Assembly: GCA_029907475.1 (NCBI GenBank)
Contig: JARYLU010000017.1
Coordinates: 1-57,880 of the forward strand
Reading direction: 5' to 3'
DNA length: 57,880 bases
Origin: Bacillota bacterium
GTDB lineage: Bacteria > Bacillota > DSM-12270 > Thermacetogeniales > Thermacetogeniaceae
Under the pieces are notes generated by a model, which worked only from the letters and a program-made list of their open reading frames with translations, ran no database searches and was not told where the DNA came from. Of the stretch, positions 11,202 to 43,700 are shown one piece after another (position 1 is the first letter of the stretch; each line of letters starts with the position of its first letter). The translations under genes and the position numbers were made by a program.

Positions 11202-11214
11202 AGTAGTTCGCCAA

Positions 11215-11350
11215 CCGCTACGCCCTCCTTTCCACACTGGGAGGCAGGAGCGTTTCCACCCCTACCCTGCCGGCCCGGCAGCCATAGCTCTGCAGCTTTA
11301 GGCCACCGAACTCGGAGAAGCGCCATTCATATGGCTTGAAACCCGGAGTT
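11215..11350 (-). promoter_or_regulatory. Moco-type riboswitch candidate upstream of formate dehydrogenase 1
   Basis: Read on the minus strand the order is a small GCCAU-AUGA-AUGGC hairpin, CTCCGAG (11311-11317), CCTAAA...TATGG (11302 to 11282) across a short hairpin (an 11-nt tetraloop-receptor pair), AGGGGTG-GAAA-CGCTCCT (a perfect hairpin with a GNRA loop), TGCCTCCCAGTG and GGAAAGGAGG. The same order occurs before modA and FDH2. Tetraloop plus receptor, and position before molybdo-enzyme and molybdate genes, match what is known of the molybdenum-cofactor riboswitch. A terminator follows. Ligand identity (Mo- or W-cofactor) is inference. Confidence 0.7.
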
Positions 11351-12245: not shown

Positions 12246-12350
12246 TCCCGTGAGGCACTCCGAGCCGGACCGCCTAAACCAGCGGGTATGGCGGCCGGCC
12301 GATAGGGTGCAGCTGGAAACGGCTGCGCCTCCCGTTTGGAAAGGAGTGAA
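12246..12350 (+). promoter_or_regulatory. Moco-type riboswitch candidate upstream of modABC
   Basis: CTCCGAG (12258-12264), CCTAAA (12273-12278) and TATGG (12287-12291) across a hairpin, a CAGCT-GGAAAC-GGCTG hairpin, GCCTCCC and GGAAAGGAG (12338-12346) follow the same order as the FDH1 and FDH2 leaders. The final AGGAG serves as a ribosome site for a six-codon frame (ATG at 12355, MDHAFL). Sequestration of this box would couple cofactor binding to translation or transcription of the long leader. Assignment rests on architecture and gene context. Confidence 0.7.
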
Positions 12351-12381
12351 AGTCATGGATCACGCCTTCCTCTGACCGGTT

Positions 12382-19113: not shown

Positions 19114-21795
19114 CTAACCTGCCAGTTTTTCCAACTTAACGGCGCATACCTTGTACTCCCCGGTTTTCGTAACCGGATCCAGGGCCGGACTGGTCAGAAC
19201 GTTGGTCGGGGTCTCGGAATAGTGGAAGGACATCCAAACCACGCCTGGAGGAACGCGATCCGTGACCCGGACCCTGGTGATCACTTCTCCCCGCCGGGAA
19301 GCCACTTTAACCTGGTCGCCGGTTTCCACGCCGATCCGGGCAGCATCGTCCGGGTTGATTTCGGCGTACTCCCGGGGCCACATGCTCTGGATTCCGGCGG
19401 AGTAGGGAGTCGTCACATTATAGTGGTACAGCATTCTTCCCGTTGAAAGCAAAAAGGGATACTCCTGATCCGGCAGCTCCGCCGGGGGAGTGTGATCAAT
19501 CCCCTGGAACAACCCCTTGCCCCGGGTGAAGGACTTGGCGTGAAGATAAGGAGTTCCCGGGTGCTCGCACGTGGGGCACGGCCACTGGAGCCCCCTCTCC
19601 TCAAGCCTAGCGTAGCTCATTCCCGCGTAGGCAGGATTCAGGGAAGCCATTTCCGCAAAGATCTCCTCCGGGGTCCGGTAGGTCATGGGGTACCCCATCC
19701 TCGTACTCATAGCCATGATCGTCTCCCAGTTGGCCTTGCCGGGGAGGGGTTCAATGGCCTTCCGCACCCGCTGGACGCGGCGCTCCGTGTTGGTAAAGGT
19801 TCCATCCGTCTCCGCAAAACTGGCGGCAGGAAGGATAACATCGGCATAGGCCGCAGTTTCTGTCAGGAATAGCTCATGAACCACCAGGAAGTCCAGCTTC
19901 TCCAGACCGGATCTGATGTGATTGCTGTTGGGGTCCGTGAGCACCGGGTTTTCCCCCAGGATGTACATGGCCCTGACCTCTCCGGCGTTGGCTTTGTCGA
20001 ACATTTCAGGGATCATTACGCCAACTTCGCCCGGCAGGGAGACGCCCCAGGCCTGCTCGAACTTGGCCCGGACTGCGGGGTCGATAACCTTCTGGTAGCC
20101 GGGGAGGACGTTGGGCAGCGCCCCCATGTCGCAGGCCCCCTGCACGTTGTTCTGACCGCGCAAGGGGTTGACTCCGGTGCTGGGACGGCCGATGTGACCG
20201 GTCAACATGGCGAGATTGGCAATGCTCATCACATTGGCGGTCCCGCAGATGTGTTCCGTAATCCCCAGGGTGTAGAAGATCATTGCCTTATCTGTTGTGG
20301 CATAGAGCCGGGCAGCCGTGTAGAGATCCTCCTCCGGCACCCCGGTGATGCGGGATACGTAATCGGGTGTGTATTTAGCCACGGTCTCTTTGAGAGCCTC
20401 GAAGTTCTCGGTCCGCTCCGCAATAAAATCTTTATCGTAAAGGCCTTCTTTGATGATAATGTGCATCAAGCCGTTGAGCAGCGGAATGTCGGTGCCCGGC
20501 CGGATGCGCAGCCAGCAGTCCGCCTCCTCGGCCAGCTCGATGCGCCGCGGATCGACCACAATGAGCTTCGCCCCCCGGCGCACCGCCTGCTTCATCTTGT
20601 ACCCGATCACCGGGTGGGCCTCGGTGGTGTTCGTTCCGATCAGGAAAAGCAACTCCGCACCGTTAATCTCGGAAATGGAGTTGGTCATCGCACCGCTTCC
20701 AAAAGAAGTGGCCAGACCGGCCACGGTGGGCGCGTGTCAGGTACGGGCGCAGTGGTCCACGTTGTTGGTGCCCATCACCGCCCGGACGAACTTCTGGACC
20801 AGGTAGTTCTCTTCGTTGGTGCACCTGGCGGAGCTCAGGGCGGCAAAAGAATCTGGTCCGTACTTGTCCCTGATTTCCTTGAAGCGAGCGGCAATCGTGT
20901 CCAGGGCCTCGTCCCAGGAAACAGGAACGAATTCCCCGTTTCGTTTGATAAGAGGGGTTGTGAGACGCTTTGCGCTGGAGATAAAGTCCCATCCGAAGCG
21001 CCCCTTAATGCAGAGGGCGTTCCCGTTGACCGGACTGCTGGGGTTGGAGGTTACTCCTATAACCCCGCCGTCCCTGACGCAGAGATCAAAGTTGCAGCCC
21101 GTCCCGCAAAAAGGGCAGGTAGTCCTGACCCGCTGCAATTCCCAGCGGCGCCCCTTCCCCTGCATCTGTTTCTCGGTCAAAGCCCCTGTCGGGCAGGCTG
21201 CCACACAGTTGCCGCAAAAAACGCAGTCAGACTCGGCATAAGTAGTATCCCCGAAGGGTGCCACCTTTGTGTTGAAACCGCGGTTTACGAAGTCCAGGTT
21301 ATCCTTGCAGGTGATTTCGGCACAGGCGCGTACACACCTGCCGCACAAAATACACTTGTTGAGGTCACGGACAATGAAGGGGTTGTTATCTTCTAGATCA
21401 TAGGCATGTCTTTCTCCTGTAAAGGAGGGGGAAAGAACACGATACTCGTAGCAGTACCGCTGAAGCAGGCACTCGCCGCTTTTTTCGCAAGTAAGGCAAT
21501 CCAGCGGGTGGTTGGCAATTAAAAGTTCCAGGATGGTGCGCCTGGCCTCCCGGACGACAGGGGTGTCGGTACGCACCACCATCCCCGGGGCGACCGTGGT
21601 AACGCAGGAGGCCGGCAGATTGCGCATTCCCTCGATTTCAACCACACATAAGCGGCATGCACCCACAGAACTCAGATCTGGGTCGTAGCAGAGCCGGGGA
21701 ATGTGGATTCCCGCATGCTCCGCCGCTTCGAGAACCGAGAGCCCTGCGGGAACAGAAATTTCTTTCCCATCAATTGTAAGCGTAACCAGTTCCAC
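19114..21795 (-). CDS. fdhA: Formate dehydrogenase 2, selenocysteine NAD-linked type catalytic subunit
   Basis: The 893-residue protein combines a 2Fe-2S ferredoxin domain (SSVGACRLCVVEIEG, residues ~40-60), the NuoG-like His/Cys 4Fe-4S site (HPLDCLTCEKSGECLLQ), two 4Fe-4S motifs (CILCGRCVRAC and CVFCGNCVAACP), the catalytic 4Fe-4S (TCPFCGTGCNF) and the full Mo/W-bis-MGD fold. UGA at 20737-20739 encodes Sec353 in CART-Sec-HAPTVAGL. It is the electron-wired form that passes electrons to NADH-dehydrogenase-like subunits. No such partner follows it here, so it may share those of FDH3. It heads an operon with two molybdopterin proteins. Its ~390-base leader has a Moco-type element and terminator. 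Confidence 0.93.
20700..20739 (-). promoter_or_regulatory. SECIS element of formate dehydrogenase 2
   Basis: GTGGCC-GGTCT-GGCCAC (20708-20724), starting shortly after the UGA, is a perfect 6-bp stem with the GGUCU loop seen in E. coli fdhF. It is the clearest of the three in this window. Confidence 0.75.
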
Positions 21796-22035: not shown

Positions 22036-22054
22036 TTTCTCAGGGCAGGTAAGA

Positions 22055-22160
22055 AGCTCCTTTCCAACCACGGGAGGCAAATCCGTTTCCAGCTTTACCC
22101 TAACGGCCTCCTGCCATAGCGAATTAACGCCTTAGGCAGAGAGGCTCGGAGCAAGGATAT
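22055..22160 (-). promoter_or_regulatory. Moco-type riboswitch candidate upstream of formate dehydrogenase 2
   Basis: On the minus strand: GCTCCGAGCCTC (22152-22141), canonical tetraloop receptor CCTAAG...TATGG (22136 to 22114) closing a GGCG/TCGC hairpin, AGCTGGAAACGG, TGCCTCCCGTGG and GGAAAGGAG (22065-22057). Order and spacing match the FDH1 and modA leaders. The element starts within ~20 bases of the FDH3 stop codon, so it may act on readthrough from the FDH3 operon as well as on a local promoter. Confidence 0.7.
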
Positions 22161-22180
22161 TCAAATTTTTTTTAAAGTGC

Positions 22181-24865
22181 TCAGGCGATTTTTTCTACTT
22201 TCACGGCGCAGACTTTTAGTTCCGGTATTTTCGCGATGGCATCAAACTTCGGGTTGGTCAGCCTGTTGGCCGGCGTCTCGGCAAAGTGGAAGGAGGTGAA
22301 GACAACACCTGGTGGCACGATATCAGTCACTTTTGCCGTGATTTCAATGGCGCCACGCCTGGAGGCTACCCTGACCTTCTCCCCGTCACTGATACCGAGG
22401 CGCTCCGCATCTCCGGAGTTGATTTCCAGGTAATCCTCGGGGAAGAATTCTTCGAGCGATCCCTTGCGCGTCATGGTACCGGTATGGTAGTGGTAAAGTC
22501 GGCGACCTGTACTGAGAATAAATGGATAAGCAGCGTCGGGCAGTTCATCAGGCGGCACGTGCTCAACCGGATGGAACTTCCCGAGCCCGCGACTGAACTT
22601 CTCAGCGTGCAGGAAAGGAGTTCCGGGGTGGTCCGGAGTTGGACACGGCCACTGAATACCTTTTTCCTCGAGACGGGCAAAGGAGATACCTCCGTAAGAC
22701 GGGGTAAGCCGGGCAATTTCGTCCATAATCTCAGACGGAGAGGCGTAGTTCATCGGGTAACCCATTAAGGTCGCAAGGCGGCAGATGATCTCCCAGTCCG
22801 CCAGGGCCTGTCCGGGCGGCTCGACGGCCTTCCGCACCCGCTGAACGCGCCGTTCAGTATTGGAGAAGGTGCCGTCTTTCTCCGCAAAGCAGGCGGCAGG
22901 AAGAACCACGTCGGCGTGACGGGCTGTTTCGGTCAGGAAAATGTCCTGAACTACAAGGAAATCGAGTTTCTCCAGGCCCTCCTCCACATGACCGGTATCC
23001 GGGTCGCTCAGCACCGGGTTTTCCCCCATAACGAACATCGCCTTGAGATCTCCATGTACAGCCGCAGTCATCATTTCCCCAACAGTGAGTCCGGGTTTCT
23101 CGGGGATTACACAACTCCAAGCCTGGCCGAATTTATCCCGGACACCTGAATCAGCCACACTCTGGTACCCGGTCAAAACGTTAGGCAGGGCCCCCATGTC
23201 GCAGGCTCCCTGCACGTTGTTCTGACCGCGCAGGGGGTTCACGCCGGTAGATTCCCGGCCGATCTGGCCGCAGAGCATGGCGAGGTTTGCCACTGCAAAA
23301 ACATTGTGCGTGCCACATGTATGCTGCGTTACTCCCATCGTGTAGAGAATGGTTCCTCGTTCTGCACTGGCGTAAGCACGTGCCACTTCTTTAATTTTAT
23401 CGGCAGGAATCCCTGTAAGCTCCGCGACGTACTCGGGAGTATACCTGGTTACCGCCTCCTTCAGGGCTTCGAAGCCTTCCGTCCGGGACTCGACGAATTC
23501 CTTGTTCCAGAGCCCTTCATTAATGATCACATTTGCCAGCCCGTTGAATAAGGCAATATCCGTCCCCGGTTTCAGTTGGAGATGCTCGTTAGCCATTTTC
23601 GCGAGATCGGTTTCCCGCGGGTCGATGACAACCAGTTGGGCGTCCTTGCGAAGGGCCTGGTTTACCTTGTAGCCGATGACAGGATGGCACTCTACGGTAT
23701 TGGTCCCGCATGCCAGGATGAAATCCGCCCCGCTGATTTCGCCAATGGAGTTGGTCATGGCGCCGCTTCCGAATGCTGCCGCTAGACCAGCGACAGTAGG
23801 AGCGTGTCAGAGGCGGGCGCAGTGGTCGATATTGTTCGTACCGAGCACCGCGCGCGTAAACTTGCTCAACAGGTAGTTTTCCTCATTGTTACAACGGGCG
23901 GAGCTGAGCACTCCAATGGCGTCAGACCCGAACTTCTCCTTGACTTCTTTGAGCTTTCCTGCCACCAGATTCAAGGCCTCGTCCCAGGTGGCCTCCTGGA
24001 ACTCTCCGTCCTTTTTAATAAGCGGGGTTTTCAAGCGGTCCTCGCTGTGGATGAACTGGTAGCCGAAACGCCCTTTAACACAGAGGAAACGACCGTTGAC
24101 ATCTCCGTCCGGATTTCCGGTAACACCGATTACCTTTCCATCCTTGACGTTGAGATCAATGGTACAACCCGTACCGCAGTAGGGACATACCGTTTTTACC
24201 TTTGTTACTTCCCACGTGCGGCCCTTCCCAATCATGTCCTTCTCAACCAGCGCTCCGACCGGACAAACAGCAACGCAACTCCCGCAGTAAACGCACTCCG
24301 ATTCCCCAATGGGGGTATTCATAAAGGGTCCCACCTTGGTACGAAAACCCCGGTAGGAAAAATCGAGAATGCTCCGGCCTACAACTTCCTCGCAGGCACG
24401 AATACAGCGCCCGCATACGATGCACTTATTCATATCCCTGATGTAGAAAGGGCTGCTGTCATCAATGGCGTAATCGTGCTTTTCGCCCTCGTAGGAGGCG
24501 CCACTTATTCCGTATTCGTAACAATACTGCTGGAGGAGGCAGGCACCGCTCTTTTCGCAGGTTAAACAATCGAGGGGATGGTTTGCAATCAGTAGTTCAA
24601 GAATGGTACGCCGGGCCTCCATCAGGGCCGGTGTACTGGTACGGATTACCATTCCCTCGGTGCAGGTCGTAACACAGGAAGCGGGGAGGTTGCGCATTCC
24701 GTCTATTTCTACAACACAAAGACGGCACGCCCCGACAGGGGTCAGGTCCGGGTCATGGCACAGGGCGGGAATTTTTATCCCAATGGACCGGGCTGCGTCC
24801 AGGACCGAGGTACCTGCCGGAACCTGCACCGTCTGGCCATCAATGGTGACGGTTACAAGAGCCAC
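22181..24865 (-). CDS. fdhA: Formate dehydrogenase 3, selenocysteine catalytic subunit of a NuoEF-linked complex
   Basis: The 894-residue protein has the same layout as FDH2: 2Fe-2S ferredoxin domain (TPVGACRLCVVEIDG), HPLDCLTCEKSGACLLQ, CIVCGRCIRAC, CVYCGSCVAVCP, VCPYCGTGCTI, then the catalytic domains. UGA at 23807-23809 is Sec353 in CARL-Sec-HAPTVAGL. GTG at 24865 is used, with AGGAG ten bases upstream; the longer frame to 25009 overlaps the previous gene. It ends the operon NuoE / 2Fe-2S protein / NuoF / FdhA, so it should exchange electrons between formate and NAD(H), perhaps with ferredoxin as in bifurcating Hyd/Hyl complexes (inference). The same Sec position in FDH2 shows a recent duplication. 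Confidence 0.93.
23770..23809 (-). promoter_or_regulatory. SECIS element of formate dehydrogenase 3
   Basis: CGCT-GGTCT-AGCG (23780-23792) follows the UGA with the same spacing and loop as the other two copies. The stem is the shortest, about 4 bp plus a possible G-U extension. Confidence 0.65.
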
Positions 24866-24896
24866 TTTTCTCTCACTCCTTTTCCCAGAAGATACC

Positions 24897-26690
24897 TTAC
24901 AAGCGCAAAATCGCATCCTGGCGGCACTTTTCGAAACATGTCCCGCACTTGATGCATTTTTCAGGATCAATCTTATGTGGTTCTTTCTTCTCTCCGGAAA
25001 TTGCTCCAACAGGACATGCCTTCAAGCAGCGTCCGCATCCGATACATTTTTCTTCATCAATGGTATAGACCAGCAGCGCGGAACAAGCGTGAGCCGGACA
25101 CCGTTTATCCAAAATGTGGGCTTCGTATTCATGCCGGAAATAACGAAGTGTAGAAAGAACAGGGTTTGGAGCCGTATTCCCTAAGCCACAGAGAGCAGTT
25201 CCTTTAATCACGCGTCCCAAACGTTCCAGGGTATCAATGTCTTCCGGCACACCCTTGCCTTCGCAAATCCTGGTTAAAATCTCCAGCATCCGCTTCGTCC
25301 CTTCCCGGCAAGGAGTGCATTTCCCACACGACTCAGCCTGTGTAAAATTCAGGAAAAATCGCGCCAGGTCTACCATACAAGTGGTTTCGTCCATTACGAC
25401 CAAACCACCTGAACCCATCATTGCCCCCGCCGCAATGAGGGATTCGTAATCAATCGGAGTATCAATAAGTTCGTTAGGTATACAACCGCCTGAAGGACCT
25501 CCGATCTGAACACCCTTAAATTGTTTGCCCCCCACTATGCCGCCGCCAATTTCATAAATGACCTCCCGTAAAGTAATACCCATCGGTACTTCCACTAAGC
25601 CCGTGTTGTTAACCTTCCCTGTAAGAGCGAAAACTTTCGTTCCTTTGCTCTTTTCCGTACCCATACTGGCGAACCAGTCGGCTCCCCGCATGATAATCAC
25701 CGGTACGTTGGCAAAGGTTTCGACGTTGTTAATGTTGGATGGCTTATCCCAAAGACCCCGCTGGGCCGGGAAAGGTGGCCTTACCCGGGGCATCCCGCGC
25801 CGGCCTTCAATTGAAGCCATTAAAGCGGTTTCCTCCCCGCAGACAAAGGCCCCTGCTCCTTCTTTAATATGGAGGTCGAAACTGAAACCTGAACCGAGAA
25901 TGTTCTCGCCGAGCAGGCCCAGTTCCTCTGCCTGCGCAATGGCGATTTTCAGGCGTTTAATTGCCAGAGGGTACTCGGCCCGGACATATATATAACCTTC
26001 GCGGCAGCCAATGGCATAAGCGCCAATCGCCATCCCCTCAATGAGGGTGTGAGGATCGCCCTCGAGTACGCTCCGGTCCATGAAAGCACCGGGGTCGCCC
26101 TCGTCAGCATTACAGATGAGGTACTTTAAGTCGCCAGGTGAACGCCGGCAAAACTCCCACTTCATTCCTGTCGGGAAACCACCGCCACCACGGCCGCGCA
26201 GGCCCGAACGCTTGATTTCATCAATTACCTGCTCCGGGGTCATTTCAAAAAGGACCTTTTCCAGACCTTCGTACCCCCCCCGGGCAATATATTCCTGGAT
26301 ATTTTCCGGGTTGATAGAGCCGCAGTTCCGCAGGGCAACCCGTAACTGCTTCTTGTAGAATGTAATTTCTTTGTAGGCCGGAATTTGCTCCTCGGTAGCC
26401 GGCGCCTTGTAAAGTAAACGATTGACAATTCGCCCCTTAAGCAAATGTTCTTCCACAATCTCTGGGACATCTTCAGGGGTTACTCTCACGTAAAAGGTCC
26501 CTTCCGGATAAACAATCACAAGAGGACCCATCTCGCAGAAACCGTGGCAACCAGTTTCTACAATCTTTATTTCCTGCTCCAGTTTGTGTTTCTCCAGTTC
26601 CTTGGTCAGAAACTCTTGAACCTGTTTGGAACCCGAGGAGGTACATCCGGTACCACCACAAACCAGAACATGGGCTCTGACTAACTGCAA
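24897..26690 (-). CDS. hydB: NuoF/HydB-type NAD(P)-binding Fe-S flavoprotein subunit
   Basis: The 597-residue protein has four parts. A thioredoxin-like 2Fe-2S domain comes first (GGTGCTSSG and TGCHGFCEMGP). Then comes the NuoF core with the NADH site GRGGGGFPTGMKW (~175-187) and the FMN motif CNADEGDPGAFMDR, and next the 4Fe-4S ligands ESCGKCTPCREG with a later C in TALCGLGN. Two C-terminal ferredoxin clusters finish it (CIGCGRCLKACPVGA and CIKCGTCFEKC). It moves electrons between NAD(P)H and Fe-S clusters. This is the HydB/HylB form with extra clusters of [FeFe]-hydrogenase and formate dehydrogenase complexes. TTG at 26690 is chosen because GGAGG lies seven bases before it. Confidence 0.92.
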   Translation of the reverse strand: MQLVRAHVLVCGGTGCTSSGSKQVQEFLTKELEKHKLEQEIKIVETGCHGFCEMGPLVIVYPEGTFYVRVTPEDVPEIVEEHLLKGRIVNRLLYKAPATEEQIPAYKEITFYKKQLRVALRNCGSINPENIQEYIARGGYEGLEKVLFEMTPEQVIDEIKRSGLRGRGGGGFPTGMKWEFCRRSPGDLKYLICNADEGDPGAFMDRSVLEGDPHTLIEGMAIGAYAIGCREGYIYVRAEYPLAIKRLKIAIAQAEELGLLGENILGSGFSFDLHIKEGAGAFVCGEETALMASIEGRRGMPRVRPPFPAQRGLWDKPSNINNVETFANVPVIIMRGADWFASMGTEKSKGTKVFALTGKVNNTGLVEVPMGITLREVIYEIGGGIVGGKQFKGVQIGGPSGGCIPNELIDTPIDYESLIAAGAMMGSGGLVVMDETTCMVDLARFFLNFTQAESCGKCTPCREGTKRMLEILTRICEGKGVPEDIDTLERLGRVIKGTALCGLGNTAPNPVLSTLRYFRHEYEAHILDKRCPAHACSALLVYTIDEEKCIGCGRCLKACPVGAISGEKKEPHKIDPEKCIKCGTCFEKCRQDAILRL

Positions 26691-26719
26691 CGTAATCCCT
26701 CCTTCCATTTCAAACTTTT

Positions 26720-27091
26720 CTAAATTTCTTCAAAGCGGGCAATTACCAGATCTTCGACAATATTCCCGTGCAGGACATGACCGGTAACGATTCGCGGCAC
26801 GTCAGCCGGTTTGACGTTTCCGTAAGTAATCCGTTTTTCTCCGGGGCGTTGCACATCCACGAGAGGCTCTTTTTCGCACATCCCAATGCATCCGGTCTGG
26901 GTTACCGTTGCCTGGATGTTGCGTTTGTTAAGCTCTTCCAGGATGGCAGCCATCACTTCCCGGGCGCCGGCTGCAATTCCGCAGGTTCCCATACCGACAA
27001 TGATTTTCGTCCCCTCGGCCCCGCGCGCTGCAACCAGTCCTTTTGCTTCTTCTCGGAGTCGCCTGAGATCCTCCCTGCTTTTCAGCGTCAC
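26720..27091 (-). CDS. Thioredoxin-like 2Fe-2S ferredoxin subunit
   Basis: About 123 residues with the thioredoxin-like ferredoxin pattern: IIVGMGTCGIAAG near residue 30, then TQTGCIGMCEKEPLVDVQ (~70-87), giving four Cys for one 2Fe-2S cluster. The C-terminus (GNVKPADVPRIVTGHVLHG) matches the N-terminal domain of the NuoF partner. In multi-subunit bifurcating hydrogenases and formate dehydrogenases it sits between NuoE and NuoF, as here. GTG at 27091 is the likeliest start; 27124 is possible. Same operon, 30 bases before hydB. Confidence 0.85.
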   Translation of the reverse strand: MTLKSREDLRRLREEAKGLVAARGAEGTKIIVGMGTCGIAAGAREVMAAILEELNKRNIQATVTQTGCIGMCEKEPLVDVQRPGEKRITYGNVKPADVPRIVTGHVLHGNIVEDLVIARFEEI

Positions 27092-27249
27092 ATCATCCAC
27101 CAGGGTTTTCGTTCTCCAGAACAACTAAAGTGTCCGGGTGACCAGACGTGAAGCCTGTCCTTTTCTTCTTACTGCAAACCCTGGTGTCTTCACCTCCTTT
27201 CCCTCGTCATGGGAAACATGCATCTCATGAAAATACCACCCGGAAATCA

Positions 27250-27741
27250 CTACTGGTAATTTGCCAGAATATCCTTTAACTTGTCTGGTGCAAGACGGCC
27301 GTGGGTATCATCATTAACCATGATCACAGGAGATAAACCACAGCAGCCCAGGCACGCAACGGTTTCTAGGGTAAAGTTGAGGTCAGGTGTTGTTTCGTTG
27401 TTTCCTACACCCAATTCTTGCTGCAACCGCTCAAAAATTCGCGCGCCTCCCCGTACATGACAGGCCGTGCCAAGACAAACCCTGACGATGTTTCGTCCCC
27501 TTGGTTTCAAGTGAAACTGGGCATAGAAAGTTGCCGCCCCGAAAACCCGGCTTGGCGGGAGTTTCAGTTCCCGGGCGATCCATATCAGAATCTCCCTGGG
27601 GAGGTAACCATAAATTGCCTGCGCTCCCTGCAAAATCGGGATTAAAGCTCCTTTGACGCCACGCCATTTTTCAAAGAGATCCTTTAGCTCCTTTTCCTTC
27701 TGAGCATCCCCGGCAGGCTGTGTACAGCCGCATTCACACAT
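27250..27741 (-). CDS. hydC: NuoE/HydC-type 2Fe-2S subunit
   Basis: The 163-residue protein matches NuoE: LIPILQGAQAIYGYLPREIL, FGAATFYAQFHLKPRG, and the 2Fe-2S ligands VCLGTACHVRGGA and then ACLGCCGLSPV. The first residues CECGCTQ add three Cys not needed for the NuoE cluster. It opens the four-gene operon ending in FDH3 and passes electrons within the NuoEF unit. ATG at 27741 follows AGGAGGGGAAACAG, a strong ribosome site; the upstream extension is not needed. Confidence 0.9.
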   Translation of the reverse strand: MCECGCTQPAGDAQKEKELKDLFEKWRGVKGALIPILQGAQAIYGYLPREILIWIARELKLPPSRVFGAATFYAQFHLKPRGRNIVRVCLGTACHVRGGARIFERLQQELGVGNNETTPDLNFTLETVACLGCCGLSPVIMVNDDTHGRLAPDKLKDILANYQ

Positions 27742-27808
27742 CTGTTTCCCCTCCTTTCTGGACAATTCACATAACAACCTGTTTCCCGGAACCAATGGAC
27801 CCGGTTAA

Positions 27809-27890: not shown

Positions 27891-28017
27891 AAATCATGAA
27901 AAAACTAACAAGGAATTCCCCCAGCTTGCTTTCCCTTAAATTACCTGTTGATCAATTATGTAAACCATGACATAATTACCATTGCGAAAAATTATTGCCG
28001 AATCCGTACTCTTCTGC

Positions 28018-28240
28018 CCAAAAAAGGTACGGTACGGGGGAACCATTCATCACCGCCCGCGCTTGCTCGGAGCGGTGAAGGGGTGAATCCCCGCACTCAA
28101 GCTTTACGTAAGCTCGATGTACCCCGTGAAAAGCAGCCCGAACCATAAACAAAAGGGCTTGCCGGATGAAACGGAGTTAAGGCTTGAGTGCGGGGTAGGT
28201 TCTTATCCTTTCAACCGAACCCATCAGCTTACCCCGGAGG
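28018..28240 (+). promoter_or_regulatory. c-di-AMP riboswitch (ydaO-yuaA motif)
   Basis: GGTACGGGGGAACC, GGGGTGAATCC, a long CCCCGCACTCAAGC/GCTTGAGTGCGGGG stem (28089-28102 with 28182-28195), AACCGAACCCATCAGCTTACCCCGG and a closing GGAGGC are the conserved blocks of the ydaO-yuaA RNA. This RNA binds cyclic di-AMP and typically precedes cell-wall hydrolase and ion or osmolyte genes. It directly precedes a LysM cell-wall hydrolase here. The rest of the 27,742-28,264 gap is the promoter region. Confidence 0.9.
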
Positions 28241-28264
28241 CAGCGAAAGGAGGAAACAAAAAAA

Positions 28265-29029
28265 TTGCGAAGGATCGGACTTGGAGTTTTATGGCTTATC
28301 TTGTTTTTCCTGGTAATGAGAGGGACAAGCTATGCTGCGGAATACTACACAGTTCAACCGGGGGATTCTCTTTACCTCATTTCCCGGGCCTACGGTCTTA
28401 CTCCCGAAACATTGATCAAAGCCAACGGCCTTGCAGGTACTATCATCTGGCCAGGTCAAATTTTAACCATCCCCATCCCCAGCCGCTACACAGTGAGACC
28501 CGGTGATACCCTTTACCGGATTGCACTGGCATACGGGACAACTGCCGAAAACCTGATATCATTAAATTCCCTTACCTCAACGACAATTTACCCGGGACAA
28601 ATTCTGCTTGTTCCCGACAGCGTCCCGGCAACTTCCCCAACTGCTTCACGTGCCGGGATTTCCACCCGCGACATCTACCTCCTTGCCCAACTCATCCACG
28701 CCGAAGCAAATGGTGAACCCTTTGAAGGACAGGTCGCCGTTGGTGCAGTCGTTCTCAACCGGCTCCTTGATCCGCGGTTTCCGAAAACAATTCCGGATAT
28801 TATTTTTGAATACGGGGATGGAACATACCAGTTCGAACCGGTTCTTAACGGACAAATCTACCTTCCCCCCGGCCAATCGGCGCTCCGGGCCGCTTACGCC
28901 GCTCTTTCGGGTTGGGACCCGACCGGAGGGGCTCTCTTTTTCTACAATCCCGCGAAGTCAAAAAGCACTTTTTTTGAAAGATTTCTCACCTTTTTGTGCC
29001 GGATCGGTAACCACGTTTTTTACCGGTAA
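28265..29029 (+). CDS. Secreted cell-wall hydrolase: two LysM domains and SleB/CwlJ-type domain
   Basis: The 254-residue protein starts at TTG behind AAAGGAGG. A signal sequence (LGVLWLILFFLVMRGTSYAA) is followed by LysM 1 (YYTVQPGDSLYLISRAYG, ~27-70) and LysM 2 (YTVRPGDTLYRIALAYG, ~74-118). The SleB-type Hydrolase_2 domain follows (~130-254: LAQLIHAEANGEPFEGQVAV, GAVVLNRLLDP, then GALFFYNPAKS). It binds peptidoglycan and cleaves it, with lytic transglycosylase or amidase roles in growth, spore cortex lysis or germination. The riboswitch upstream should lower expression when c-di-AMP is high. A strong terminator follows, so it is monocistronic. Confidence 0.9.
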   Translation: MRRIGLGVLWLILFFLVMRGTSYAAEYYTVQPGDSLYLISRAYGLTPETLIKANGLAGTIIWPGQILTIPIPSRYTVRPGDTLYRIALAYGTTAENLISLNSLTSTTIYPGQILLVPDSVPATSPTASRAGISTRDIYLLAQLIHAEANGEPFEGQVAVGAVVLNRLLDPRFPKTIPDIIFEYGDGTYQFEPVLNGQIYLPPGQSALRAAYAALSGWDPTGGALFFYNPAKSKSTFFERFLTFLCRIGNHVFYR

Positions 29030-34991: not shown

Positions 34992-35342
34992 ATGACACTG
35001 GCGGAAGTAAGAGCACTTCTATCCGCGGAAGTTATCTGCGGACAAGACAAACTCAACCTCCCAGTCGAATCAGCCTGCGCAGGAGACCTCTTGAGCGACC
35101 TGCTGGCTTTCAGCCACAATAAGACACTGCTCCTTACGGGTCTCAACAATTCCCAGGTGATTCGAACGGCTGAGATTATCGATCTCGCGGCAATCATTTT
35201 TGTGCGCGGGAAACGACCCCATGGTGAGATGATCCAATTGGCAGAAGAAAAGGGGATTCCGCTTCTGGTTACCCGAATGCCTCTTTATGAAAGTTGCGGT
35301 ATCCTGTATAGTGCCGGTCTCCGGGAGGAAAAAATCTCTTAG
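34992..35342 (+). CDS. DRTGG domain protein 1
   Basis: The 116-residue protein follows the DRTGG pattern: MTLAEVRALLSAEVICGQD, CAGDLLSDLLAF, TGLNNSQVIRTAEIIDLAAI, FVRGKRP and EKGIPLLVTRMP. The domain recurs in phosphotransacetylase N-termini and CBS/HPr-kinase-like proteins and probably binds a small ligand or mediates interaction. It opens a six-gene, same-strand cluster (34,992-38,993) whose members are a pair of DRTGG proteins, two GHKL ATPases, a PHP protein and a [FeFe]-hydrogenase-like protein. Confidence 0.85.
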   Translation: MTLAEVRALLSAEVICGQDKLNLPVESACAGDLLSDLLAFSHNKTLLLTGLNNSQVIRTAEIIDLAAIIFVRGKRPHGEMIQLAEEKGIPLLVTRMPLYESCGILYSAGLREEKIS

Positions 35343-35386
35343 GCTCGTTTCAAGTTCAAAACTTTAAACGAAAGGGGTTCCCCTAA

Positions 35387-35905
35387 TTGCTTCGGGTACC
35401 AGAGAAGGGTTCTGGTCGCAGGAATTGTGAAAATAAGAACAAAAATAGTGACGAAAGTTTCAGCGAACATAAAATTTCCCTGGAATTTACGGTAGAAGGG
35501 AAGAATTTCCTCGCAGCAGGGGAGGCTTCAAGCCGGCTTAAACATACCCTTCAGCATATCGGCTTTCCTGCTCCCTTAATTCGAAGGGTCGCAGTCGCAG
35601 CATACGAAGCCGAAATGAACATGATTATTCATGCCGACCGGGGCGCCTTAAAAGCAGAAATCACTCCGAAAACGGTGACGATCTGGGCCGAAGATGAAGG
35701 ACCCGGAATTCCCAACATCGAACTGGCAATGCAGGAAGGTTATTCAACCGCTCCTGATTATATCCGAGAAATGGGGTTTGGGGCCGGAATGGGCCTTCCC
35801 AATATTAAAAAGTGTACTGACATCTTTGAAATAAATACAACAATCGGAGTAGGAACAAAGTTAAAAATGGTCATCTTTAATAAACAGGACCCTGGATCGC
35901 TTTAA
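35387..35905 (+). CDS. RsbW/SpoIIAB-like GHKL ATPase (anti-sigma factor type)
   Basis: The ~172-residue frame has the GHKL ATPase features: VAVAAYEAEMNMIIHAD (N-box, EAxxN at ~76-93), IWAEDEGPGIP (G1, ~103-113), MGFGAGMGLPNIKKCTD (G2, ~131-147) and a final GVGTKLKM. It resembles small serine-kinase anti-sigma factors rather than histidine kinases: no dimerisation helix or phospho-His. TTG at 35387 gives an ~30-residue polar leader; the domain starts at about KISLEFTVEG. It probably phosphorylates or sequesters a partner in response to the hydrogenase-like sensor next door (inference). Confidence 0.8.
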   Translation: MLRVPEKGSGRRNCENKNKNSDESFSEHKISLEFTVEGKNFLAAGEASSRLKHTLQHIGFPAPLIRRVAVAAYEAEMNMIIHADRGALKAEITPKTVTIWAEDEGPGIPNIELAMQEGYSTAPDYIREMGFGAGMGLPNIKKCTDIFEINTTIGVGTKLKMVIFNKQDPGSL

Positions 35906-35921
35906 ATATGGGTCCGGAAAG

Positions 35922-37346
35922 ATGGTGGCTATGGAAAAGGGCGTTTATTCAATTTTCCTCGACGAAGAGCGGTGCACAGGGTGCACAAATTGCATTAAGC
36001 GGTGCCCAACCGAGGCAATCCGGGTCCGGGACGGGAAGGCAAAAATTTTCGCGGACCGCTGCATCGACTGCGGCGAGTGCGTCAGGATCTGCCCGAACCA
36101 CGCTCCAATTCCTCAGTCCGATGCCAGGGAAAAGACAGGGCAATTCCGGCACACAATTGCCCTGCCCGATCCCGCCCTCTTTGGCCAGTTTAAAACAAAA
36201 CCTTCGCCCCGCCAGATTCTCGCCGCAGTTGCCGCCCTCGGTTTTGACAGCGTCTACGAAGTAGCCTGGGCAGCCGATGCGGTAAGCATTGCGATCCGGG
36301 AATTTATTCAAGAGCACAAAGGTGAAGGGCCGTGGATTTCTTCGTCCTGTCCTGTAGCAATCCGGCTGGTTCAGGTGCGCTTTCCCAGCCTGACAGAACA
36401 AATCCTTCCGCTCCTTTCTCCGGTGGAGGTGGCCGCAAAGCTGGCAAAGGAGGAGTTCAGCCGCCAACTGGGGATTCCGCCACAAGAGTTCGGATGTTTT
36501 TACCTGACCCCCTGCCCTGCCCAGGTCACCGCGATCCGTTCTCCTTACCACCTGGAGCATTCTTATGTAGACGGCGCCCTCGCCATTTCGGGCCTTTACT
36601 GCGAGCTCCGGGAAAAAATCTCCAGGACTCCGGAACAAAACGAACCGGTCAAGGCAACCGCCCCCGGTTTGACCTGGGGGCGGGTAGGAGGCCAGACAAG
36701 AGCCGTCCAATCGGAAAACTACCTGGCCATCGACGGAATCAACAATCTCCTCCAGGTATTCGAAGAAATCGAGCTGGGCAAATTCAACACCAACATTGAT
36801 TTCCTGGAGTGCCAGTGCTGTCAGGGTGGCTGCGTGGGAGGCACATTCACGGTAGAAAACCCCTTTGTGGCACGGGTAACCCTGCGGCGGATGGCAAGCC
36901 AGTTGCGGCCCAAATTAGAGCTTGAGGAAGAGCAGGAGGTTCTAGAATACTACCGCAAGGGCTATTACCGGGCCGAAAAGGATGTGGAACCATATTCTAT
37001 CATGTGCCTGGATAAAGATATTGCCAAGGCCATCTACATGGTCGAGCAGTCGGAAAAAATCTTAAAGCAGTTGCCGGGGCTGGACTGCGGTTCCTGCGGC
37101 TGTCCTACCTGCCGCACCCTCGCGGAAGACATCGTCTGCGGGATCGCGACAGAGACAGATTGCGTTTTCAAGCTGCGCGAACGGGTTCAGTCCCTGGCAG
37201 AGCAGATGCTGGCGCTCGCCTTGAAGGTTCCCCCTGTTACGGTGGTGCAACGCCAGATCATGAAAACCCAACGGGAAGTCTTGGAGCTCGCGAAAAGACT
37301 CCCTCCCGTACTCGCAAAACCCAATCAGGAAAAGGAGGGGAAGTGA
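35922..37346 (+). CDS. [FeFe]-hydrogenase-like iron-sulfur protein, probably sensory
   Basis: The 474-residue protein has two N-terminal 4Fe-4S motifs (CTGCTNCIKRCP and CIDCGECVRICP). A hydrogenase-like domain follows. L1 reads SSSCP (Cys143), L2 reads LTPCPAQ (Cys198) and L3 reads CCQGGCVGG (Cys300, Cys304). The four cluster ligands are kept, but the proton-relay Cys of TSCCP is Ser and the L2 Lys is absent. The C-terminus adds DCGSCGCPTCRTLAEDI (~388-404), a Fe-S-cluster domain known from redox regulators. It probably senses H2 or redox state and signals through the flanking GHKL proteins rather than catalysing fast H2 turnover. It overlaps nothing and follows the ATPase after 16 bases. Confidence 0.88.
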   Translation: MVAMEKGVYSIFLDEERCTGCTNCIKRCPTEAIRVRDGKAKIFADRCIDCGECVRICPNHAPIPQSDAREKTGQFRHTIALPDPALFGQFKTKPSPRQILAAVAALGFDSVYEVAWAADAVSIAIREFIQEHKGEGPWISSSCPVAIRLVQVRFPSLTEQILPLLSPVEVAAKLAKEEFSRQLGIPPQEFGCFYLTPCPAQVTAIRSPYHLEHSYVDGALAISGLYCELREKISRTPEQNEPVKATAPGLTWGRVGGQTRAVQSENYLAIDGINNLLQVFEEIELGKFNTNIDFLECQCCQGGCVGGTFTVENPFVARVTLRRMASQLRPKLELEEEQEVLEYYRKGYYRAEKDVEPYSIMCLDKDIAKAIYMVEQSEKILKQLPGLDCGSCGCPTCRTLAEDIVCGIATETDCVFKLRERVQSLAEQMLALALKVPPVTVVQRQIMKTQREVLELAKRLPPVLAKPNQEKEGK

Positions 37347-37347
37347 A

Positions 37348-37689
37348 GTGACAGTCGAAGAGGTGGTTGAAGTCCTGGGCCTGACGGTGAGAAGCGGGGC
37401 TGCGAAGCTCGACAAGCAAGTTAGCGGAGTCTACGTTTCTGACCTTCTCAGCGATGTCATGGCGAATGCCCGGGAAGGAAACATCTGGATTACATTACAG
37501 ATTCATCCCAATGTGATTGCAGTTGCAACACTCCTGAATCTTTCGACCGTAATCATCAGCCGGGGCGCAGAGCCGGAAGCTGCAACTCTAGCCAAGGCGG
37601 AAGCGGAGGGGATCCCTGTTCTGACAACATCAGAACCCACTTTTGAAGTAGCAGGACGTCTCTACCAGCTTCTTAACCCCGCGCCGTAA
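37348..37689 (+). CDS. DRTGG domain protein 2
   Basis: The 113-residue protein starts at GTG: VEEVVEVLGLTVRSGAAKLD, VYVSDLLSDVMANAREGNIW, TLQIHPNVIAVATLLNLSTV, IISRGAEPE and GIPVLTTSEPTFE. It is a divergent paralogue of the first DRTGG protein of the cluster. The two flank the hydrogenase-like gene and may form a pair. It starts two bases after the hydrogenase-like stop. Confidence 0.85.
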   Translation: MTVEEVVEVLGLTVRSGAAKLDKQVSGVYVSDLLSDVMANAREGNIWITLQIHPNVIAVATLLNLSTVIISRGAEPEAATLAKAEAEGIPVLTTSEPTFEVAGRLYQLLNPAP

Positions 37690-37703
37690 AGTGAGGTACC
37701 GGG

Positions 37704-38444
37704 ATGCAAAAGTTCGCCGTTGACCTGCACATCCACACAGCCCTTTCGCCCTGCGCTGAGGAGGAAATGACCCCCCCTGCCGTTCTCGCCCGAGCCGCTG
37801 CAAACGGCCTCCGGATCATTGCAATCACAGATCACAATTCTGCATGTAATACTCCTGCCTTTGTTGAAGCCGCAGCTGGAGGACCCGTAACCGTGATCCC
37901 GGGCATGGAGGTGCAAACGCGCGAGGAGGTGCACCTCGTCTGTCTCTTCGCGGAGCCGGAGGAGGCGCTCGCGTGGCAGGAAGTGGTTTATGCCCACCTG
38001 CCACCTTTAAAAAATAACGAGAGGGTTTTCGGGACCCAGCAGTTGCTTAATGCTGCAGGTGAAGTGACAGGGATTGAAGAAAGGCTGCTTCTTGCTTCAA
38101 CCGACTTCTCCGTCGAAGAAGTTGTTGCAGGAGTACACGCCCGCCACGGGATCTGTTACCCTGCCCATGTGGACCGCCCCGCTTTCAGCATTATCGGAAG
38201 TCTCGGTTTCATCCCACCAGATCTCCAAATTCCCGTTGTAGAAATTTCCCGGAATATCAACCGGAAACGCGCCTTAGAAAAATTTCCCTTTCTGGAACGC
38301 TATCACCTCTTGGGCAGTTCCGATGCCCACCGCCTTGACGAAATCAGCCAGGTCAGGACACGGATCGGTTTGAAAGAACCTGCCTTCGAGGCCCTGGCAG
38401 AGGCCCTCTGGGACCGGAGCCAAAACAGGATCGAGGTGGACTGA
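37704..38444 (+). CDS. PHP-domain metal-dependent phosphoesterase
   Basis: The 246-residue protein has the PHP metal-binding motifs FAVDLHIHTALSPCAEEEM (~3-21), IAITDHNSACN, MEVQTREEVHLVCLF, CYPAHVDRPAFS and LLGSSDAHRLDE. These supply the His/Asp/Glu set for a trinuclear metal site. Related proteins hydrolyse phosphoesters or nucleotides. It is between the sensor and the second GHKL ATPase and could reset a phospho-signal (inference). Stop and next start are adjacent (38444/38445). Confidence 0.85.
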   Translation: MQKFAVDLHIHTALSPCAEEEMTPPAVLARAAANGLRIIAITDHNSACNTPAFVEAAAGGPVTVIPGMEVQTREEVHLVCLFAEPEEALAWQEVVYAHLPPLKNNERVFGTQQLLNAAGEVTGIEERLLLASTDFSVEEVVAGVHARHGICYPAHVDRPAFSIIGSLGFIPPDLQIPVVEISRNINRKRALEKFPFLERYHLLGSSDAHRLDEISQVRTRIGLKEPAFEALAEALWDRSQNRIEVD

Positions 38445-38993
38445 ATGCGCGAGCTTTCTCTTCACATTTTAGATGCCTTTGAAAACTCGAGGGTAGCGGA
38501 AGCCACTTTGATTCAACTCGAAATTACAGAGGACATGGAAAAGGACCGCCTGGAGATCGCCATTACCGACAACGGGCGCGGGATGACGCCGGACTTTGCA
38601 GCACGGGTATTTGACCCTTTTGTAACAAGCCGGACCTGCCGGAAAGTAGGTCTGGGGCTCCCCCTTCTCAAAGCCGCAGCTCAGCGGTGCAATGGTGATG
38701 CCGAAATAAGCTCCGCACCTGGGAAAGGGACCACCCTCCACGCCTTTTTCCAGCACAGCCACATCGACAGGGCACCCCTCGGTAATCTGGTCGAGAGCCT
38801 GGTTATTTTCCTCGCGGCCAATCCGGAAATGGATTTGATTTACACGCACCGGGTAAACGAGAAGGCCTTTACCCTGGATACCCGCGAACTCCGGGTCGAA
38901 CTCGAAGATGTCCCCTTAAACAGCCCCCCCGTTCTCGACTGGATCCGGAAATACCTACGAGAGGAACTGCAAGAAATCAACTCTACCGCTTAG
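38445..38993 (+). CDS. GHKL ATPase (histidine-kinase-like catalytic domain alone)
   Basis: The 182-residue protein has an N-box-like start (LSLHILDAFENSRVAEATLI), ITDNGRGMTPD (G1, ~44-54), VFDPFVTSRTCRKVGLGLPL (F and G2 boxes, ~60-79) and APGKGTTLHAFF. No phospho-acceptor His domain precedes it, so it is a stand-alone kinase-like domain. The last ~70 residues are not GHKL. It ends the cluster and overlaps the 3' end of thiM by four bases. In other clostridia such a gene often precedes nuoE/nuoF hydrogenase operons (known context). Confidence 0.82.
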   Translation: MRELSLHILDAFENSRVAEATLIQLEITEDMEKDRLEIAITDNGRGMTPDFAARVFDPFVTSRTCRKVGLGLPLLKAAAQRCNGDAEISSAPGKGTTLHAFFQHSHIDRAPLGNLVESLVIFLAANPEMDLIYTHRVNEKAFTLDTRELRVELEDVPLNSPPVLDWIRKYLREELQEINSTA

Positions 38994-43584: not shown

Positions 43585-43607
43585 AGAAAAAATACTTTCT
43601 CTTTTTC

Positions 43608-43700
43608 CCACTTCCCTCCGCTGGCATTACCCAGATCAGGTTCTAAGGGTCGGCACTCTACGTTGCCTCTCAGCCTTCTCCGGCACCCCTAGTGGGACCT
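43608..43700 (-). promoter_or_regulatory. TPP (THI-box) riboswitch
   Basis: On the minus strand GGGGTGCC, GGCTGAGAGG, GACCCTTAGAACCTGATCTG and GGGTAATGCCAGCGGAGGGA are the conserved TPP aptamer blocks. It controls the thi4-thiDE-thiC-thiM operon by terminator formation when TPP is plentiful. Confidence 0.97.

Follow-up and report, generated by a model that had tools for sequence, protein, structure and literature searches.

What does an [FeFe]-hydrogenase-like protein do among signalling genes, in a genome that holds no other [FeFe] hydrogenase? This question is raised by a six-gene cluster on the plus strand (positions 34992-38993) of a 57,880-nucleotide stretch of DNA, hereafter the window, which is contig JARYLU010000017.1 (positions 1 to 57,880) of a Bacillota bacterium of the family Thermacetogeniaceae (assembly GCA_029907475.1). 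The cluster encodes, in this order, a DRTGG-domain protein (D1), an RsbW/SpoIIAB-like ATPase, the hydrogenase-like protein (HYD), a second DRTGG-domain protein (D2), a PHP-domain protein and a GHKL ATPase (table 1). We consider it somewhat probable that the cluster is a complete version of a signalling module conserved in anaerobes and built around a group D hydrogenase-like protein, and that this module has here become independent of H2 and would now act as an Fe-S redox sensor for an NADH-linked, bifurcating-type formate dehydrogenase. How far this compound reading can be trusted is set by its core, namely the absence of a functional diiron site in the window protein, which we hold to be highly probable, and a functional tie of the module to formate dehydrogenase, which seems fairly likely.

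A preliminary description of the window, made from the bare sequence, had reported six genes on one strand with short gaps and had named their domains; all six open reading frames (ORFs) are indeed in place, with intergenic gaps of 44, 16, 1, 14, and 0 nt, and the Pfam and NCBIfam matches agree with the names. The RsbW-like ORF is counted from a TTG codon and its true start may be further downstream; its top NCBIfam match is SpoIIAB (1.5e-12), under the equivalog cut-off. Neither ATPase has a Pfam match to a HisKA/DHp domain, and the HATPase domain of the GHKL protein already starts at residue 10, which bears out the claim that the cluster is distinct from standard two-component systems. Structure predictions from three-sequence alignments were poor, with a mean pLDDT of 34.9 for the hydrogenase-like protein and 52.9 for D2.

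To place the cluster among its relatives, 398 genomes of the same phylum were searched, 159 of which hold strong relatives of the hydrogenase-like protein (E below about 1e-90), and 121 loci besides the window were gene-mapped (L002, L003, and L034-L153 except L053); L075, whose anchor is a canonical HydA because a TAG interrupts its group D gene, was excluded from the residue counts. As described beforehand, the window protein keeps all four ligands of the H-cluster cubane (C143, C198, C300, and C304); it also has two N-terminal [4Fe-4S] motifs, and its L1, L2, and third motifs read SSSCP, PCPAQ, and CQGGC. No PAS domain is found in it by Pfam. Two of the traits that had been singled out turned out to be real but ordinary. 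The “extra” C-terminal Cys domain is the Cx2Cx4Cx16C cluster of the group D family (C389, C392, C397, and C414), beyond which the protein has about 35 additional C-terminal residues common to its clade. Likewise, a Ser does stand in place of the proton-relay Cys (S142 at the C299 position, with T196 at the M353 position), but group D proteins lack C299 and have Ser/Thr for M353, and the C299 position is Ala in 73 and Ser in 42 of the 121 members, so that the L1 Ser was ruled out as a special trait of the window protein (115/121 Ala or Ser). In a tree of these 121 proteins, built by a quick method with no outgroup and no bootstrap, the window protein nests within group D, the smallest sets that hold it comprising four rows (SH-aLRT 100) and eight rows (SH-aLRT 95). 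Judged by its sequence, the protein is a member of the group D (M2e) clade, the family of TamHydS from Thermoanaerobacter mathranii. We nevertheless refrain from describing it as a group D hydrogenase that converts or senses H2, because the TamHydS proton path E252-E289-S249-D265 is not complete: E296 and D271 are kept, when Gln258 stands for E252 and Val255 for S249. This numbering was fixed by L064 (435 aa), used as the equivalent of TamHydS because E252, E289, and C379 bear the same numbers and because it matches the SGGEAFGTFT stretch implied by the published TamHydS mutagenesis primers (PMC10407848).

The gene order of the module is conserved far above chance in these relatives, where it usually runs D1 - RsbW - HYD - D2 - PHP - NuoE - GHKL - 120-aa 2Fe-2S protein - NuoF - HydA, NuoE being inserted between PHP and GHKL in many operons. 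At group D loci with enough flank, the RsbW-like gene is found beside the hydrogenase-like gene in 106/113, along with D1 (90/113), D2 (86/110), PHP (92/110), and GHKL (94/110); a lack of conserved gene order in relatives, on which the preliminary description had said its proposal would founder, is thus not what is observed. The co-occurrence with nuoEF-hydrogenase operons that it had proposed to survey is real as well, as 83 of 102 such loci have NuoF and 70 of 102 have HydA, when 9 of 102 have a formate dehydrogenase, and in most relatives the module would serve an NADH/ferredoxin-linked electron-bifurcating hydrogenase. In some loci, gene fusions also join the module proteins physically, namely between D1 and RsbW (11 loci), HYD and D2 (2 loci), RsbW and HYD (1 locus), and PHP and GHKL (4 loci). 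The gene for Rex, the NADH-sensing repressor, often adjoins the module. A histidine kinase-like gene and a group D hydrogenase 5' of a bifurcating hydrogenase had already been noted in Thermoanaerobacter (PMC3608648, PMC8163306). We found no description of the full six-gene combination in the open-licence literature, in line with the earlier statement that no pathway is described for it, albeit the family itself is known through the purified TamHydS (group D/M2e; PMC8163306, PMC10407848, PMC13104023). At three loci (L103, L104, and L125), the group D gene is directly followed by one for another, longer hydrogenase-like protein (a 646-aa ORF in L103), possibly a group C sensor in tandem.

With regard to H2, the window clade stands apart from this family. 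The window genome (G000) and three others (G001, G004, and G015) each encode exactly one protein with the Fe_hyd_lg_C domain (PF02906), and none of the four has a HydE, HydF, or HydG over the curated model cut-offs, the genomes of this maturase comparison being 91-99.65% complete. The best matches to the HydF model are partial (model 10-170) and were taken for ordinary GTPases, and the HydG-model matches of G004 and G015 (about 203 bits, model 35-383) were taken for ThiH-like proteins; two genomes of the same family (G003 and G011) do have HydG and HydE. There being no HydA in the window genome, the usual, not universal, position of group D genes 5' of a bifurcating group A hydrogenase does not apply. 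Among the positions conserved in more than 85% of the family, two are replaced by Gln throughout the clade. The loss of the L2 Lys, which had been noticed from the start, corresponds to K201Q, this Lys being found in 116/121 members (99% outside the clade), with the window clade and one long-branch sequence as the exceptions. The other change is E258Q, at the position of TamHydS E252, which is Glu in 115/121 (98% elsewhere). In group A enzymes, the L2 Lys is in contact with a diiron-site cyanide and takes part in cluster retention. Both replacements remove a charge next to the diiron subsite, and none of the Fe-S cysteines is lost. As for E252 in TamHydS, the variants E252V and E252D retain under 0.01% of the H2-oxidation activity and 10-20% of the H2-evolution activity and hardly respond to H2 (PMC10407848). 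The case for a loss of H2 chemistry rests on the conjunction, within the window clade, of no other HydA, no maturases, and both residues changed.

The missing maturase models alone are not proof of a missing H-cluster, because relatives with a canonical HydA are without HydE, HydF, and HydG too. Eight genomes (G236, G258, G139, G030, G035, G079, G039, and G272) have a HydA with a canonical L2 (MPCxAKK) and none of the three over cut-off; by a loose motif scan, TSCCP and CPGGC are recognisable in most of these HydA. HydG was also rejected as a simple marker of H-cluster capacity, since many genomes with group D only hold a canonical HydA (group D and HydG co-occur in 116 genomes, 43 have group D only, 106 HydG only, and 133 neither). 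As a side observation, a canonical group A-like HydA with no HydG, HydE, or HydF over cut-off occurs in high-completeness genomes, i.e., these eight together with G112, G191, G285, and G379 (loci L166-L174); G236 is a one-contig genome, and its family members G073 and G110 carry HydG and HydE. Such HydA proteins may have divergent maturases, another maturation route, or a use without an H-cluster.

If the module no longer accompanies a hydrogenase in the window genome, it does stand near another enzyme of the NuoEF type. On the minus strand, 7 kb from D1, lies an operon in which NuoE, NuoF, and FdhA with Fer2/Fer4 and molybdopterin domains occur together, predicted to encode an NADH-linked, electron-bifurcating-type formate dehydrogenase; both of its FdhA genes contain a single in-frame TGA, right at which a SECIS_3-like element is located. 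The same operon (NuoE-TrxL-NuoF-FdhA(Sec)) is found on the opposite strand at a similar distance in G001, G004, and G015, and the module is directly divergent from NuoE-TrxL-NuoF-FdhA in the sister clade (L057, L058, L065, and L092). In five further genomes (G119, G222, G258, G236, and G073), the module heads a single operon at whose end a formate dehydrogenase with Fer2/Fer4 and molybdopterin domains is read as two ORFs. Instead of HydABC, several lineages have a NuoEF-type selenocysteine formate dehydrogenase as the partner of the module. The genome has no HydG for 7 of the 9 loci with formate dehydrogenase only, versus 9 of the 70 with HydA only, a comparison of related loci that are not independent and for which no p-value is given. 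An automatic “Fdh” label for L098 was discounted, as its HydA frame is broken and its N-terminus matches that of FdhA. This locus (G334) and L121 (G160) keep the module and NuoEF, when HydA is in pieces in the former and missing in the latter; these loci may represent the beginning of the loss undergone by the window clade, or else assembly errors.

The module of the window clade bears the marks of continued use. By a simple NG86 estimate against G001 (locus L034), dN/dS lies between 0.06 and 0.15 in all six genes, the lowest value (0.062) being that of the hydrogenase-like gene, and pseudogene decay was rejected on this ground. In the five other proteins, the only changes at sites conserved in more than 85% of the family are an I->V (RsbW) and a T->S (GHKL), both conservative. 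The RsbW-like protein has intact ExxxN, DxGPGI, and GFGAGMGLPN motifs (E46, N50, and D75xG77xG79 in domain numbering), the GHKL protein an intact N box, DNGxG, and GLGLP, and the PHP protein conserved His/Asp/Glu of the metal-ligand type; Ser35 and Thr49 are invariant in 92 orthologues of D1, as are Asp32, Ser35, Thr49, and Asn55 in 94 orthologues of D2. On these estimates, the Fe-S cysteines and the catalytic motifs of the other proteins are kept under purifying selection.

On this basis, the window protein would most likely lack a diiron subsite and carry [4Fe-4S] clusters only, namely two at the N-terminus, the cubane of the H domain, and that of the C-terminus. These clusters could report the redox state of the ferredoxin pool, probably reduced ferredoxin, and their own redox state would alter the conformation of the protein, a change that may in turn control the RsbW-like kinase, with one or both DRTGG proteins as its putative partner; the PHP protein could reverse or terminate the signal, and the GHKL ATPase might act on the NuoEF enzyme or on transcription. 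H2 does not reduce the C-terminal cluster of TamHydS (PMC13104023), an observation in keeping with a signal other than H2 alone. Regarding the kinase, a sigma or STAS partner had been proposed as something to look for, but the sole STAS protein of the window genome is the sporulation protein SpoIIAA, encoded in its own SpoIIAA-SpoIIAB-sigma operon, and the cluster has no sigma factor. Because of this, and because Ser35 is invariant in both DRTGG families, we tentatively propose a kinase-DRTGG step, with Ser35 as a candidate lead for the target. From the phospho-relay gated by H2 or redox state that had been put forward at the outset, we thus retain the conserved module of hydrogenase-like, kinase-like, and phosphoesterase proteins and prefer redox as its input; gating by H2 finds no support in this organism, whose genome, like those of the three relatives, comes with no HydE, HydF, or HydG, no catalytic [FeFe] hydrogenase, two Gln by the diiron site, and a formate dehydrogenase as the NuoEF partner. 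A broader version, in which a hydrogenase-derived signalling protein has given up H2 chemistry in favour of Fe-S redox sensing alone but has kept the whole relay (an RsbW-like kinase acting on DRTGG rather than STAS, with a PHP reset), and in which the module serves electron-bifurcating NuoEF enzymes generally, hydrogenase or formate dehydrogenase, strikes us as somewhat unlikely.

Several observations weigh against an H2-independent sensor of formate dehydrogenase. The changes of Lys and Glu and the loss of HydA and HydEFG fall in a single clade, hence in one evolutionary event that allows no statistical test; the link between the module and the fdh operon in the window is one of proximity, on opposite strands, and not of co-transcription; and the sister clade is also linked to formate dehydrogenase yet keeps Lys and Glu. 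Other observations leave room for a protein that still senses H2, its diiron cluster being provided by unrecognised maturases and only detuned by the two Gln, so as to yield a low-turnover sensor informing formate dehydrogenase or [NiFe] hydrogenases. Indeed, the latter are present in the window genome, where H2 still matters to the cell, the four cubane-ligand Cys and the equivalents of E289 and D265 are kept, the canonical HydA found without HydE/F/G matches in relatives indicate that unrecognised maturation may exist, and Gln is likewise found at the E252 position of L146 and L151, whose genomes are HydG-positive. We still regard such a sensor as unlikely, since no other [FeFe] hydrogenase of the genome would justify a maturation pathway, the E252 substitutions nearly abolish the H2 response of TamHydS (PMC10407848), and the L2 Lys is otherwise near-invariant.

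The hydrogenase fold may also have been put to work in another way, as in Nar1, a precedent for this fold without H-cluster (PMC12991071): the protein would help to assemble the Fe-S clusters of the NuoEF-type enzyme or deliver electrons to it, and the other module proteins (ATPases, DRTGG, and PHP) would be assembly or nucleotide-dependent chaperone factors instead of a relay. This would account for the module accompanying an Fe-S-rich enzyme, be it hydrogenase or formate dehydrogenase, and for NuoE lying between PHP and GHKL in many operons, as would be expected of enzyme-associated factors, but it sits poorly with the fully conserved RsbW-type kinase motifs and with a C-terminal cluster and conserved tail that differ from Nar1, and we deem it quite improbable. 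As for a decaying leftover of a lost HydABC operon, devoid of current function, the disappearance of HydA and maturases from the genomes of the window clade and the two changed active-site residues are what it would predict; with six ORFs intact in four genomes, the low dN/dS, and the retained catalytic motifs and gene order, it is strongly disfavoured and hardly credible.

Set against known systems, the window protein is closest in design to TamHydS (PMC8163306, PMC10407848, PMC13104023), with which it shares the two N-terminal [4Fe-4S] motifs, the H domain, the Cx2Cx4Cx16C motif, the lack of PAS and of C299, Ser/Thr at M353, and the equivalents of E289 and D265; it is 45% identical to L080, a Thermoanaerobacter-like member, and the TamHydS-numbered locus L064 has the same DRTGG/RsbW/DRTGG/PHP/GHKL neighbours. 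It differs from TamHydS by Gln at the positions of E252 and the L2 Lys, by a genome with neither HydEFG nor HydABC, by the formate dehydrogenase that lies nearby in place of a hydrogenase, and by its longer C-terminus. The sensory group C (M2f) protein TmHydS (PMC10055695) has in common with it the C-terminal four-Cys cluster, the missing C299, and a proposed sensing role, but includes a PAS domain, which the window protein does not. The window ATPase resembles the RsbW/SpoIIAB partner-switching kinases in its HATPase_c_2 fold, ExxxN, DxGxG, and glycine-rich lid, from which kinase activity is predicted, whereas its cluster has neither a STAS anti-anti-sigma nor a sigma factor and instead two DRTGG proteins at the place expected for STAS. 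Nar1/IOP1 has the hydrogenase fold and is reported to be without the catalytic H-cluster (PMC12991071), but it is a factor of the eukaryotic CIA (cytosolic Fe-S protein assembly) machinery, when the window protein combines the C-terminal cluster of group D with neighbours of the signalling type. Research has approached group D hydrogenases as H2 sensors, and finding their signalling partners was called critical in a 2026 study of TamHydS (PMC13104023); in this regard, the conserved neighbours D1, RsbW, D2, PHP, and GHKL, together with their fusions, make up a concrete list of candidates. The window clade offers a natural experiment, as selection maintains the module there despite an apparent loss of H2 chemistry and with a formate dehydrogenase as partner; this suggests that the input of the module may not be H2 itself but the redox state of the ferredoxin/NADH pool.

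Table 1. Coordinates of the six-gene cluster, the formate dehydrogenase operon, and other elements of the window.
Feature	Position	Strand	Evidence or context
D1, DRTGG-domain protein, 116 aa	34992..35342	+	Pfam PF07085 4.4e-06
RsbW/SpoIIAB-like HATPase, predicted Ser/Thr protein kinase or switch, 172 aa	35387..35905	+	PF13581 (HATPase_c_2) 1.3e-08
Group D (M2e)-clade [FeFe]-hydrogenase-like protein, 474 aa	35922..37346	+	Fe_hyd_lg_C (PF02906) 2.1e-27, Fer4 pair, FeS PF04060
D2, second DRTGG-domain protein, 113 aa	37348..37689	+	PF07085 3.4e-08
Predicted PHP-domain metallo-phosphoesterase, 246 aa	37704..38444	+	PF02811 6.9e-11; nearest PDB sequence 2yb1 4.1e-05
GHKL ATPase without phospho-acceptor His domain, 182 aa	38445..38993	+	PF02518 (HATPase_c) 3.9e-16
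NuoE-like [2Fe-2S] subunit of the nearby bifurcating-type formate dehydrogenase	27250..27795	-	PF01257 1.5e-49
Short thioredoxin-like [2Fe-2S] protein (TrxL; ~120-aa gene of relatives' operons)	26720..27124	-	PF01257 4.8e-05; orthologues in relatives
NuoF-like FMN/NADH subunit	24897..26708	-	PF01512 7.3e-48
FdhA copy 1, NuoG-type N-terminus and molybdopterin domain	22181..25009 (ORF limits; start probably near 24870)	-	In-frame TGA (Sec) 23807-23809
FdhA copy 2	19114..21795	-	In-frame TGA (Sec) at residue 353
SECIS_3-like element at FdhA copy 1 TGA	23754-23812	-	45.9 bits, E 8e-08, below gathering score 63
SECIS_3-like element at FdhA copy 2 TGA	20684-20742	-	42.8 bits, E 7e-07, below gathering score 63
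Moco (Mo/W) riboswitch between the two fdhA genes	22041..22163	-	RF01055 82.2 bits
Moco riboswitch	11209-11329	-	One of three in the window
Moco riboswitch	12246-12363	+	One of three in the window
c-di-AMP (ydaO/yuaA) riboswitch	27986-28257	+	5' of LysM-type ORF 28265-29029
TPP riboswitch	43596-43700	-	Ahead of thiamine gene cluster, - strand

A scan for Rex-like sites found 10 where 6.4 were expected, i.e., no excess over chance, and promoter and terminator scans were uninformative. Three Moco riboswitches in total occur within the 58-kb window. The c-di-AMP riboswitch and its LysM-type ORF lie between the fdh operon and the module, and the thiamine gene cluster follows immediately downstream of the six-gene module.

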